A DNA stretch of 48,741 nucleotides from Gemmatimonadota bacterium (GTDB lineage Bacteria; Gemmatimonadota; Gemmatimonadetes; Gemmatimonadales; Gemmatimonadaceae), in NCBI GenBank assembly GCA_021299375.1, contig JAJTGR010000005.1, positions 1 through 48,741 of the forward strand. The letters are read 5' to 3'. The notes beneath the pieces were generated by a model. It had not been told where the DNA came from and did not search any database. It saw only the letters and a program-made list of their open reading frames with translations. The position numbers were made by a program, and so were the translations under genes. Shown here in pieces: positions 12,349-48,721 of the stretch; the stretch's first letter is position 1, and each line of letters opens with the position of its first letter.

Positions 12349-12356
12349 TCAAGGCT

Positions 12357-14198
12357 ATGGAAATTCGCAACGTTGCCATCATCGCCCACGTCGACCACGG
12401 GAAGACCACCCTTGTCGACAAGATGCTCCGCCAGTCCGGCGCCTTCCGCGAGAACCAGGTCGTCGAAGAACGCGTGATGGATTCCAACCCGCTCGAGAAG
12501 GAGCGGGGGATCACCATCCTCGCCAAGAATACGAGCATCCGCTGGAAGGACACGAAGATCAACATCGTGGACACGCCGGGGCACGCCGACTTCGGCGGTG
12601 AGGTGGAGCGCATCCTGCGCATGGTGGACGGCGTGTTGCTGGTGGTCGATGCCTTTGATGGCCCGATGCCGCAGACCCGTTTCGTGCTGCGCAAGGCGCT
12701 GGAGTTGGGCCGGACGCCCATCATCGTGATCAACAAGATCGATCGGCCAGGCGCGGACCCGCTGCGCGTGCACGATGAGGTGCTCTCGCTGTTCATCGAG
12801 CTCGAGGCCAGCGAGGAGCAACTCGACTCACCGGTCGTGTACTGCTCGGCCAAGAACGGGATCTCCACGCTCGATCTCGACGTCGAGCCCGTCGATTTCG
12901 AGCCGCTGTTCGAAACGATCGTGAAGACGGTGCCGCCGCCACCGCGTGATGCAGAGGGGCCGTTCCAGATGCTCGTGTCGACCATCGACTACTCGGCCTA
13001 CCTCGGCCGGCTCGCGATCGGGCGTATCGAACGTGGGACGATCCACATGGGGGACAGCATCACGCTGGTCACGACGGATGCCGCGATGCCGCCGGTGCGC
13101 GGCCGTGTGACCAAGCTGTACGGGTACGAAGGCCTGGACCGCGTCGAGATCCAGGAGGCGTCGGCCGGCGAGATCGTGCAGTTGGCCGGCTTCGAGGACG
13201 TCGACATCGGCAACACGCTGACCGACCCCTCCCATCCGGAAGCGCTCGAGGGGATCAGCGTCGAGGAGCCGACCATCAGCGTCGACTTCGTGGTCAACAA
13301 CTCGCCCTTCGCCGGCAAGGAAGGGAAGTTCGTGACGTCGCGTCAGATTCGCGAGCGGCTGTACAAGGAACTCGAGCGGAACGTGGCACTGAAGGTCGAG
13401 GACAGCGACACGACCGACGCCTGGAGCGTGTCGGGACGTGGTGAGTTGCACCTCTCCATCCTCATGGAGACCATGCGCCGCGAGGGGTTCGAGTTTCAAG
13501 TGTCGCGGCCGCGCGTGATCACCCGCCTCGATGAGCATGGCCGGAAGCTCGAGCCGTTCGAGGAACTGTCCATCGACGTGCCGGAAGACTATCTCGGGGT
13601 CGTCATCGAGAAGCTCGGGCCCCGCAAGGCCGAAATGATCGAGATGAAGAACCCGGGGCAGGGGCTGGTGCGCTTGTTGTATCGGGTGCCGGCGCGCGGG
13701 CTGTTCGGCTACCGCAGCGAGTTCCTCACGGACACGCGCGGCACCGGCATCATGCACCACCGGTTCCTCGAATACGGTCCGTGGGCGGGGCCGCTGTCCG
13801 GCCGCTCGCGCGGGGTGCTCGTCTCCATGGAAAACGGGACCATCATCGCCTTTGCCCTCTTCTCGCTGCAGGAGCGCTCGACCCTCTTCGTCACGCCGGG
13901 TGATGCCGTCTACGAGGGCATGCTGATCGGGGAGAACTCGCGTCCCGGCGACATGGACGTGAACCCGTGCAAGGAGAAGAAGCTCACCAACATGCGCTCC
14001 AAGGGCGCGGACGAAGCGATCGTGCTCGAGCCGCCCCGCCAGCTCACCCTGGAGAGTGCGCTCGAGTACATCGAAGACGATGAGCTCATCGAAGTGACAC
14101 CCCAGAGCATCCGCCTGCGCAAGCGCCTGCTGCAGGCCAGCGATCGCAAGCGTATCAGCCGCGAAGTCAAGCGCGAGCGCGACCGCGCATCGGCCTGA
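12357..14198 (+). CDS. typA: Ribosome-associated GTPase TypA/BipA
   Basis: 613 residues, the usual family length. All GTPase motifs are visible: G1 AHVDHGKTT (residues 10-18), G2 region [11 protein letters not shown]3 [15 protein letters not shown]4 NKIDRPGA and G5 SAKNG. EF-G-like domains II, III and V and the BipA-specific C-terminal domain follow (for example [16 protein letters not shown] and the [11 protein letters not shown] loop). BipA binds the 70S ribosome and supports 50S assembly and growth under stress or cold. ATG 12357 is chosen because the conserved N-terminus starts there. There is no proper ribosome-binding site; the promoter directly before it suggests a leaderless mRNA. Confidence 0.97.
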
Positions 14199-14249
14199 TC
14201 CTGGCGACGTGAGCCAGGCTGCGTAACCCGGGGCCAGGCCGCGTTTTTT
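14191..14249 (+). terminator. Probable terminator after typA
   Basis: CGGCCTG (14191-14197, overlapping the typA stop) can pair with CAGGCCG (14235-14241), with an inner CCTGGC/GCCAGG stem (14200-14205 / 14213-14218). A run of six T follows at 14244-14249. The long interior makes the exact fold uncertain, but the T-run directly after a G/C stem supports termination. Confidence 0.45.
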
Positions 14250-14253
14250 CGGC

Positions 14254-14282
14254 TTGCGCCCCGGCGTCTCCGTGCCGATACT
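14254..14282 (+). promoter_or_regulatory. Promoter of the hyperacidic protein gene
   Basis: TTGCGC (14254-14259), a 17-bp spacer and GATACT (14277-14282). The expected start is near 14289, giving a leader of ~54 nt that holds AGGAG at 14329-14333, nine bases before ATG 14343. Unlike its typA neighbour, this gene has a conventional leader. Confidence 0.5.
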
Positions 14283-14342
14283 CCCGAGTCCGGGAGTTCG
14301 TTTGCCCTTCCCCTTTCTTCACACTCGCAGGAGAATCGTCCC

Positions 14343-14660
14343 ATGTTGGAGCTGTTCGGGTCGTCGTCGATGGACGCGCTCGAAGAGAAGGTGCCGTCGT
14401 CGCTGTTCGCCTTCGCGGGCGATGACGATGAGGAGTTCGACGACGAAGGGTTGGACGAGGATGACCTCGACGATGATGATGACGTCGACTTCGATGACGA
14501 CGATCTCGATGACGAGGATGATGACGACCTCGATGACCTCGACGAGGACGACGACCTCGACGACGACGACGACGAGGACGATGACGAGGATGAGGACGAC
14601 GAGGACTTCGACTACGAGGATGACCTCGGCTACGGTGACGAGGACGATCCGGACGCCTGA
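14343..14660 (+). CDS. Hyperacidic Asp/Glu-rich protein
   Basis: 105 residues. The first 25 are ordinary (MLELFGSSSMDALEEKVPSS and on). Of the remaining 80, 61 are Asp or Glu, broken mainly by Leu, Phe, Tyr and Gly. There is no signal peptide or membrane helix. The low-complexity codon pattern is GAC/GAT/GAG repeats. Support for a real gene: a clear AGGAG ribosome-binding site, its own promoter and a position behind the typA terminator. I know no characterised family with this layout. Such polyanionic tails can mimic nucleic acid, bind basic proteins such as ribosomal proteins, or bind cations; which applies here is unknown. The short hydrophobic-capped N-terminus could be an interaction segment. 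Confidence 0.7.
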   Translation: MLELFGSSSMDALEEKVPSSLFAFAGDDDEEFDDEGLDEDDLDDDDDVDFDDDDLDDEDDDDLDDLDEDDDLDDDDDEDDDEDEDDEDFDYEDDLGYGDEDDPDA

Positions 14661-14720
14661 CGGCGGCACCGTTGCCGCGTGACGTGAGGAACCTGCCGAG
14701 GAACGGTGCGATCGGCGCCC

Positions 14721-14749
14721 TTGTCCCGAGTCGGGAGCCGGGATACATT
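14721..14749 (+). promoter_or_regulatory. Promoter of tRNA-Ile
   Basis: TTGTCC (14721-14726), a 17-bp spacer and TACATT (14744-14749), placing the start near 14756, about 37 nt before the mature tRNA. Confidence 0.55.
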
Positions 14750-14792
14750 ATGCGGCTCTGGTTGATCGGCAGCCGATGGGGTGGCCGGCACC

Positions 14793-14866
<74 letters not shown>

Positions 14867-14874
14867 CTGCAGTC

Positions 14875-14910
14875 CGACAAAGGCGGCTCCATGCGGAGCC
14901 GCCTTTGTCG
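14875..14910 (+). terminator. Terminator of tRNA-Ile
   Basis: CGACAAAGGCGGCTCC (14875-14890) and its exact complement (14895-14910) form a perfect 16-bp stem around ATGC. The 3' arm ends CCTTTGTCG, so a short U-stretch lies within the base of the stem. Because of the symmetry it could work in both directions. Confidence 0.65.
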
Positions 14911-14956
14911 TGTCTTCGAGACTCTCCCTTACGTCGGCGCACGGGCGCCGTTGCCC

Positions 14957-16141
14957 ATGAACGCGTACCGGCAGTGGCTCGTCGCCTCCGTGCAGGTCGG
15001 GGGCTGTTCACTCTCGGTGGCAACCAAGCCGGGGGTACTGGCGCACGGAACGACGGACGTGGCGGCGTTCATGCTCGCGGAGGCGGTTGCCCGGCGGGGC
15101 GTGGCGGGTGCGCCGTGCCGTTCGGTGCACCTGCACAGCGGCAATGGCCTTGTCGCCGCGGTGGCAGGGCAGGCTGGCTATGCGGTGCAGGCGTATGACC
15201 GTTATCTGCCCAACGTCGAGGCCACGCGCCGAACCCTCGAGGCCAGCGGAGGGGCGGCGCCACGAGTTGCGCACGGCGTGCTGGCCACCGCAGACATGCC
15301 GTCGGGGGGCGCCGATCTGGTCACGATCCGCATTCCGACCGATCGCCTCGGAGTGCAGATGGCCATCGCCGAGGCGTATCGGTGCCTTGCCGTTGGTGGC
15401 GTTTGTCTGCTGGCGGGCGGCAACGACGAGGGGGTGAAGCCCGCCGCGCGGTGGCTCGAACGCGTGTTCGGCGGGGTGCGCCTCGATGCCCAGCACAGCG
15501 GCCACCGCCTCCTGTCGGCCGTCAGGCGCGCCGGGGAGCCCGCCGATCCCGCGGCGCTCGCCTCGCCATGGATGAACCCCGATCACATGCGCGCGACATC
15601 CGTGTCGCTGGGCGCCGGCGAATTCACACAGTACAGCCGGCCGGGCGTCTTCTCGTGGGAGCATCTCGACGAAGCCACCGCGATGCTCGCTGAGACCGCG
15701 CGCATTGCCCCCGGTGAATCCGTGCTGGACCTTGGCGCCGGCGGCGGCGCACTCGGCGTGGTCGCGGCGCGCGCGACCCAGACCGGCCGGGTGCTGTTGC
15801 TCGACGCCGATGCGGATGCCGTGCGGTGCGCGGCGCGCACGGTGATCGGCGCCGGCGTGCATCACGTCGAGGTGCGTGCCAGCGATGCGGGTGAGGCGGT
15901 GGGCGACGCGCGATTCGACGTGGTGGTGACCAACCCGCCGTTCCACGTCGGCAAGGCAACCGACCTCGCGGTTCCGCGCGCCTTCATCGAGGACAGTCAC
16001 GCTCATCTCGTGCCGGGTGGCCGGCTCTATCTGGTTGCCAACCGCACCTTGCCCTACGAGCGCTGGATCAGCGATTGCTTCGGCACCGTGCGGACCGTGC
16101 ACGACGGCCGGCGTTTCAAGGTGCTCGGAGCCACGCGATGA
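14957..16141 (+). CDS. RsmC/RlmG-like rRNA guanine-N2 methyltransferase
   Basis: 394 residues in two tandem Rossmann-like halves, as in RsmC. The N-terminal half (1-~190) is degenerate. The C-terminal half has the SAM-binding motif VLDLGAGGGALG (~residue 257) and the catalytic NPPFH motif (VVVTNPPFHVGKATD). The end shows the YLVANRTLPYERW segment and FKVLGAT, which match the family closely. RsmC methylates G1207 of 16S rRNA and RlmG a guanine of 23S rRNA; I cannot tell which applies. ATG 14957 is the first plausible start after the tRNA terminator; there is no strong ribosome-binding site. The stop overlaps the next start (ATGA), so tlpA-like translation is coupled to it. Confidence 0.88.
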   Translation: MNAYRQWLVASVQVGGCSLSVATKPGVLAHGTTDVAAFMLAEAVARRGVAGAPCRSVHLHSGNGLVAAVAGQAGYAVQAYDRYLPNVEATRRTLEASGGAAPRVAHGVLATADMPSGGADLVTIRIPTDRLGVQMAIAEAYRCLAVGGVCLLAGGNDEGVKPAARWLERVFGGVRLDAQHSGHRLLSAVRRAGEPADPAALASPWMNPDHMRATSVSLGAGEFTQYSRPGVFSWEHLDEATAMLAETARIAPGESVLDLGAGGGALGVVAARATQTGRVLLLDADADAVRCAARTVIGAGVHHVEVRASDAGEAVGDARFDVVVTNPPFHVGKATDLAVPRAFIEDSHAHLVPGGRLYLVANRTLPYERWISDCFGTVRTVHDGRRFKVLGATR

Positions 16142-48413: not shown

Positions 48414-48488
48414 GGTGGCCGTAGCTCAATCGGTTAGAGCACCGGATTGTGGTTCCGGGGGTTGCGGGTTCGATTCCCGTCGGTCACC
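48414..48488 (+). tRNA. tRNA-His (GTG)
   Basis: 75 nt including the encoded extra 5' G (48414), which pairs with C at 48488. Acceptor GTGGCCG (48415-48421) pairs with CGGTCAC (48481-48487). The anticodon stem CCGGA/TCCGG encloses TTGTGGT with anticodon GTG at 48449-48451. The T arm is GCGGG-TTCGATT-CCCGT with the usual wobble at its base. First of a three-tRNA cluster. Confidence 0.96.
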
Positions 48489-48529
48489 CTGAACACACTG
48501 GCGGGCAGCGATCCATCGCCGCTCTCCGG

Positions 48530-48602
48530 AGGTCCGTAGCTCAATTGGTAGAGCACCGGTCTCCAAAACCGGCGGTTGGGGGTTCGATTCCCTCCGGGCC
48601 TG
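48530..48602 (+). tRNA. tRNA-Trp (CCA)
   Basis: 73 nt. Acceptor AGGTCCG pairs with CGGGCCT (48595-48601), with discriminator G at 48602. The anticodon stem CCGGT/ACCGG encloses CTCCAAA with anticodon CCA at 48563-48565. Starts 41 bp after tRNA-His. Confidence 0.96.
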
Positions 48603-48648
48603 TATCTGTTTGTTCCGCCGTCGGCATTCGCCGAAGGCGACTGTCAAC

Positions 48649-48721
48649 GGCGGTATCGTCTAGGGGACTAGGACACAGCCCTCTCAAGGCTGGAACACGG
48701 GTTCGAATCCCGTTACCGCTA
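48649..48721 (+). tRNA. tRNA-Glu (CTC)
   Basis: 73 nt. Acceptor GGCGGTA (48649-48655) pairs with TACCGCT (48714-48720), where the first pair is G-T; discriminator A at 48721. The D arm GTCT..AGGA is typical of tRNA-Glu. The anticodon stem CAGCC/GGCTG encloses CTCTCAA with anticodon CTC. The T arm is ACGGG-TTCGAAT-CCCGT. Last of the cluster in this window. Confidence 0.94.

Follow-up and report, generated by a model that had tools for sequence, protein, structure and literature searches.

Comparative analysis of a 48,741-nucleotide stretch of a Gemmatimonadota genome (contig JAJTGR010000005.1, hereafter the window) indicates that a short hyperacidic open reading frame (ORF) is a real, conserved gene, since its position between typA and a translation RNA gene is kept across a whole bacterial group. 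Its product represents an unrecognised, position-conserved family that belongs to no known family, and it probably serves the ribosome. We assign a probability of roughly 0.4 to the more specific reading, in which the product would be a disordered polyanion in ribosome assembly or translation that engages basic proteins or competes with RNA. The features of the window that bear on this reading are as follows.

12351–14198, plus strand: typA/bipA, the upstream gene for a ribosome-associated GTPase, identified as an ORF with relatives 53–95% identical across the phylum
14254–14282, plus strand: promoter, consisting of TTGCGC (14254–14259), a 17-nt spacer and GATACT (14277–14282), assigned from conservation in the genus
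14320–14387, plus strand: start block, comprising the end of the 5′ UTR, the ribosome-binding site (RBS) AGGAG (14329–14333), the start codon and codons 2–15, delimited by nucleotide conservation
14343–14660, plus strand: hyperacidic protein gene, an ORF of 105 aa plus stop
14352–14387, plus strand: possible RNA hairpin in codons 4–15, part of the predicted minimum-energy fold in 19 of 20 genus members
14421–14621, plus strand: Asp-rich tract, residues 27–93, varying in length by whole codons among relatives
14622–14657, plus strand: C-terminal end DLGYGDEDDPDA, kept in the genus, at the place where a basic-aromatic tail is often found outside the genus
14793–14867, plus strand: tRNA-Ile (GAT), at a place often taken in relatives by this tRNA or by a 16S rRNA gene

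Asp and Glu make up 65 of the 105 residues in the translation of this ORF (50 Asp and 15 Glu, with one Lys and no Arg), and the longest uninterrupted D/E run spans 16 residues. The initial annotation had counted 61 acidic residues among the last 80, and the same number was obtained here. No other frame on either strand of the window reaches 45% D/E in 40 residues. Searching the 4.48 Mb genome for a pattern of 11 GAN codons gave two loci, namely the acidic gene and a locus on contig 68 (approximately 7.1–8.1 kb, minus strand). The latter was rejected as a second copy, as it encodes a different, H1-like protein. Up to 305 aa long, this protein is acidic in its N-terminal half, contains a GRP motif and carries a long histone-H1-like tail of the KAPAKKA type; its gene adjoins a glutamine-synthetase-like gene.

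In the window, the acidic ORF begins 144 nt after the end of typA, directly downstream and on the same strand, and a lone tRNA-Ile(GAT) follows 133 nt further on. In order to evaluate this arrangement across the phylum, typA loci were sampled from 59 of 102 genomes of the same family outside the genus (f1; plus G018), 20 of 30 genomes of the sister families f2/f3, and 20 of 39 genomes of the remaining class and phylum. A same-strand acidic ORF follows typA at 57 of the 59 family loci, at all 20 loci of f2/f3 and at all four loci of f4/f6, and at none of 16 loci from f5, f7 and f9; a second, unrelated frame in L114 was dropped before counting. The two family exceptions are L134, whose sequence ends 147 bases past typA, and L117, which offers the full stretch and contains no acidic ORF. 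Outside the Gemmatimonadota, none of 56 typA loci, assigned by record names that include two reading only "bacterium", carries an acidic ORF within 1.5 kb; the 56 were drawn from 73 non-Gemmatimonad loci, with 17 left out that were mostly short contigs and otherwise not chosen. The typA neighbourhood, which the initial annotation had singled out for comparison among relatives, is therefore conserved over the order, and this favours a link to the ribosome. Sequence profiles were less useful than position. One profile (A2) found 15 of 198 class genomes, missing the window's own genome and family members shown to encode the protein, and the other (A1) failed to recover G184, a genome from which it had been built. 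Since both overlook known members, absence from a profile search is uninformative and the positional test is the usable one.

The gap between typA and the acidic ORF is at most 100 nt at 39 of 57 family loci outside the genus and at 20 of 20 loci of f2/f3, which suggests that the two genes form one operon there, whereas the window's genus has a longer gap with a promoter inside it. On the other side of the gene, a tRNA-Ile(GAT) or the start of a 16S gene lies inside the fetched 1.5 kb at 46 of 81 loci (31 of 57 in f1, 11 of 20 in f2/f3 and 4 of 4 in f4/f6), and neither was found at the 19 loci without an acidic ORF, two of which have incomplete sequence. The tRNA-Ile(GAT) of the window has no rRNA genes with it, and relatives hold 16S rRNA after typA and the acidic gene; the lone tRNA is possibly the remnant of an rRNA operon.

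Within the genus, a sequence search recovered an orthologue in 22 of 30 genomes, as the initial annotation had proposed to look for, and all 22 (the window's own genome, 19 loci, G010 and G012) are open and in frame, with none of the frameshifts in the tract that it had raised as a possible objection. Of the eight genomes with no match, five also gave no typA match at the cut-off used, G018 has typA at a contig end, and G013 and G027 yielded no orthologue in this search. Two loci (L002 and L007) were dropped as duplicates of L090 and L087, and the 20 aligned genus members encode proteins of 90–111 aa.

The pattern of substitution in these orthologues points to selection on the protein itself. 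Codons for Asp and Glu differ solely by third-base transversions. GAN–GAN comparisons in the tract contain 1823 transitions and 984 transversions, compared with 2157 transitions and 6206 transversions at typA four-fold sites in an identical set of 15 genomes (15 of the 20, with L082, L090, L091, L097 and L100 left out), so that, when scaled to transitions, D/E exchange falls roughly five-fold below the neutral expectation. The corresponding ratio at D/E positions of typA itself is 2084 to 283, and the acidic tract is thus less constrained than D/E in typA. At the C-terminus, P-D-A is kept among the 20 genus members (P in 17, D in 20 and A in 20), although four different codons encode the Pro and two the Ala. 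Given the depletion of D/E exchanges and a C-terminus kept through synonymous changes, these comparisons indicate that the full-length protein is under selection, and they show that selection acts on how acidic it is, on its use of Asp over Glu and on its C-terminal end. Many members outside the genus carry a C-terminal tail combining K/R with an aromatic residue (e.g., RPKKGPRRDWE and RPHPGRYEE), which a simple rule detects in 40 of 57 f1 members outside the genus, 9 of 20 in f2/f3 and 2 of 4 in f4/f6. The window protein ends in DLGYGDEDDPDA, which contains no K or R, and the basic-aromatic tail is missing throughout its genus.

The region upstream of the gene is conserved as well. TTGCG and GATACT are unchanged in 19 of 19 aligned genus members (L097, the 20th, has just 89 nt of upstream sequence and was left out); of two further members, G010 contains the motif, and G012, the most divergent of the genus members read, does not. 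A strict sigma-70 consensus scan returned no promoter, as TTGCGC/GATACT falls below its threshold, and the assignment therefore follows from conservation among genus members and not from a consensus match. The initial description of a promoter and RBS holds for the conserved motif and for AGGAG.

From the RBS through codon 15 the gene is almost frozen at the nucleotide level within the genus. Third positions of codons 2–15 are invariant at 12 of 14 sites in 20 species, compared with 2 (rpsN), 5 (rpsH), 1 (rplF) and 4 (rplR) of 14 for ribosomal-protein genes in partly different genome sets. In the 15 genomes shared by all genes, 13 of 14 third positions are invariant in the acidic gene vs. 5–7 at ribosomal-protein gene starts, and third positions differ by a pairwise mean of 0.018 vs. 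0.17–0.27, which is approximately ten-fold lower. When the divergent G010 and G012 are added, the values become 9 of 14 vs. 4–6 and 0.065 vs. 0.20–0.27, a three- to four-fold reduction. For typA, 26 codons are invariant among the 214 that are conserved in residue, in runs of at most two. Base patterns near the start recur in other genera despite changes in the encoded residues: the second codon has G as its last base in 47 of 54 f1 members and 18 of 19 f2/f3 members, and a further G-ending codon is found at codon 7 in 47 of 54 (f1) and at codon 6 in 18 of 19 (f2/f3), with L123, L140, L154 and L187 left out owing to uncertain start codons. Taken together, these comparisons firmly support a nucleotide-level constraint on the start block. 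The block was also considered as a repeated genomic element and rejected as such, with one full match in the window's own genome and otherwise short matches.

This constraint bears on the proposal that the N-terminal 25 residues form a separate recognition segment. The segment is indeed separate from the tract, but a role in protein recognition is weakened, because the first 15 codons are nearly frozen at synonymous positions, so that conservation in the genus is at least partly at the nucleotide level, and because in other genera the segment shows no more than loose conservation. A hairpin in codons 4–15 is a weak candidate for the cause of the nucleotide conservation. Folded alone, these codons exceed in stability about 95% of the 3000 synonymous recodings drawn at random. 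Once 30 nt of upstream sequence are included, the native sequence becomes ordinary, 52–71% of recodings being at least equally stable. The RBS is slightly more accessible than expected (11% of 300 recodings are equally accessible), an 85-nt region shows no extra stability relative to shuffles (z +1.14), and the stem hardly varies inside the genus.

The protein is probably disordered, as judged from an AlphaFold2 model built on a shallow alignment of seven sequences, which contains no secondary structure or fold (mean pLDDT 60, pTM 0.12, no residue at or above 70). Searches of the window protein against Pfam-A, NCBIfam and PADLOC returned no family at E ≤ 1, and five relatives returned none in NCBIfam and one sub-threshold Pfam match (E 0.46), in profile searches that bias filters limit for low-complexity proteins. 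A PDB sequence search found no solved structure at E ≤ 1, and no paper on a Gemmatimonas acidic protein appeared among the literature matches listed. Since no family model exists, annotation pipelines are unable to name or recognise the family.

Action on the ribosome is the simplest reading, because a chain of 65 carboxylates is kept beside typA and stable RNA genes. The gene would be part of an ancient block made of typA, the acidic gene and a tRNA-Ile/rRNA operon, and the charged chain would engage basic partners without folding, either proteins of the ribosome or the basic regions of factors bound to it; alternatively, the polyanion may compete with RNA for these partners. We infer that the frozen RBS and first codons would act as a control element that sets the right amount of protein. 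The position beside typA, the selection at the protein level, the promoter kept in 19 of 19 members and the predicted disorder all count in favour of this reading, as does the role of TypA/BipA, described in one report as a 50S assembly factor important at suboptimal temperature in E. coli (PMC8313970). Against it stand the absence of the gene at all 16 loci of f5, f7 and f9 and at L117, the relatives of f5 that lie elsewhere, the missing tail in the genus, and the consideration that a neighbourhood can be conserved without a common function. The observation made in the initial annotation is confirmed, and its interpretation is supported in part. Its suggestion that the protein is a chaperone for ribosomal proteins is plausible, and it is a guess that the partner is a ribosomal protein and not some other basic protein. 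An acidic gene in the typA locus, often at operon-like distance, would suit a partner of TypA/BipA; no acidic protein is known to us as a partner of BipA, and none appears among the BipA literature matches listed.

The same chain might act in transcription or in the nucleoid, by displacing DNA or RNA from RNA polymerase or by holding HU or histone-H1-like proteins, which we consider unlikely. Prothymosin alpha, of about 110 residues by commonly known figures, is likewise Asp/Glu-rich, negative and fully disordered, and the window protein resembles it in size and charge (105 aa, 65 D/E vs. 1 K/R), its own disorder being predicted. However, prothymosin alpha is a linker-histone chaperone of eukaryotes and shares no detectable homology with the window protein, low complexity making sequence comparison uninformative, and to our knowledge it has no basic-aromatic tail. 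Prothymosin alpha is reported to bind histone H1 with both proteins staying disordered (PMC7661507). In the window's own genome, the KAPAKKA-rich H1-like protein of contig 68 would be an obvious candidate for such a role and a possible basic partner for acidic proteins. RNA polymerase delta, which has an acidic C-terminal tail and a folded N-terminal domain, is a second point of comparison. Like the window protein, whose disorder is predicted, delta (RpoE) of Firmicutes is bacterial and has an extended acidic region that is disordered, and it is reported to act in polymerase recycling (PMC7749165). The window protein, however, has some 25 residues before its tract and no predicted fold, and sequence searches matched it neither to delta nor to another family. 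No link to an RNA polymerase or nucleoid gene was seen in the neighbourhood, whose conserved members are typA and genes for stable RNAs.

Less likely still, the ORF may be a sensor of ribosome stability, in which translation of the D/E tract destabilises the ribosome, ribosome state or Mg2+ is read out through how much of the ORF is made, and translating it counts at least as much as the product. In E. coli, translation is reported to abort at D/E runs, particularly when Mg2+ is low, and a run of 20 Asp is reported to defeat the ribosome even after full-length GFP (PMC9718836), while MgtL is reported to sense Mg2+ through ribosome destabilisation (PMC11282234). The acidic ORF resembles MgtL-type ORFs of these reports in bearing acidic residues early, where they would strain the ribosome: its tract begins at about residue 27, within roughly the first 30–40 codons, it contains D/E runs of up to 16, and its start region shows nucleotide-level conservation. 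However, MgtL acts as a short leader peptide in the control of mgtA, whereas the acidic ORF is served in the genus by a promoter of its own and has a C-terminal end past the tract that is kept through synonymous changes, which implies that the full-length product matters. In addition, the downstream tRNA of the genus appears by eye to be a separate unit, with a −10-like GATACA upstream of it, and a terminator scan of 13900–15100 found no attenuator-like terminator. A combination of sensing with action on the ribosome is also improbable; here the start block and hairpin would let ribosome state govern the yield of the polyanion, which would act back on ribosome assembly, and a D/E-run ORF, of a type that the ribosome of E. 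coli does not complete, would be kept between typA and the tRNA-Ile/rRNA genes of Gemmatimonadota.

A role as a metal or cation buffer, with carboxylates binding Mg2+, Ca2+ or polyamines, is similarly doubtful: 65 carboxylates per 105 residues and an excess of Asp over Glu of 50 to 15 would suit it, but a pure buffer needs no fixed C-terminus, no basic-aromatic tail in relatives, and no position beside typA and tRNA or rRNA genes. Finally, a spurious or slippage-born ORF without function, to which low complexity and the length range of 90–111 aa among 20 aligned genus members might point, is scarcely credible given 22 of 22 genus orthologues in frame, a conserved promoter and start region, a position kept over several families, and the depletion of D/E exchange, which already contradicts neutrality.

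Free-standing proteins composed almost wholly of Asp and Glu are known mainly from eukaryotes. For this reason, and because bacterial ribosomes are reported to struggle with D/E runs (PMC9718836), a bacterial polyanion selected order-wide beside a ribosome-assembly GTPase is a natural test case for the way in which ribosomes handle these runs. The hyperacidic protein is, moreover, a candidate bacterial counterpart of charged disordered chaperones.

Two relatives from f5 lie away from typA, one (G215) with a tRNA-Ile approximately 1.4 kb off and the other (G216) at a locus with no tRNA. The acidic ORFs of the f5 relatives outside the typA locus (L241 and L255) encode W-rich tracts and the tails GRRGGRTTWN and GRPPPRPAWD, and one of them lies near a YigZ/IMPACT-like gene and tRNA-Ile. 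At its far end, the window contains a cluster of tRNA-His, tRNA-Trp and tRNA-Glu (48415–48721).
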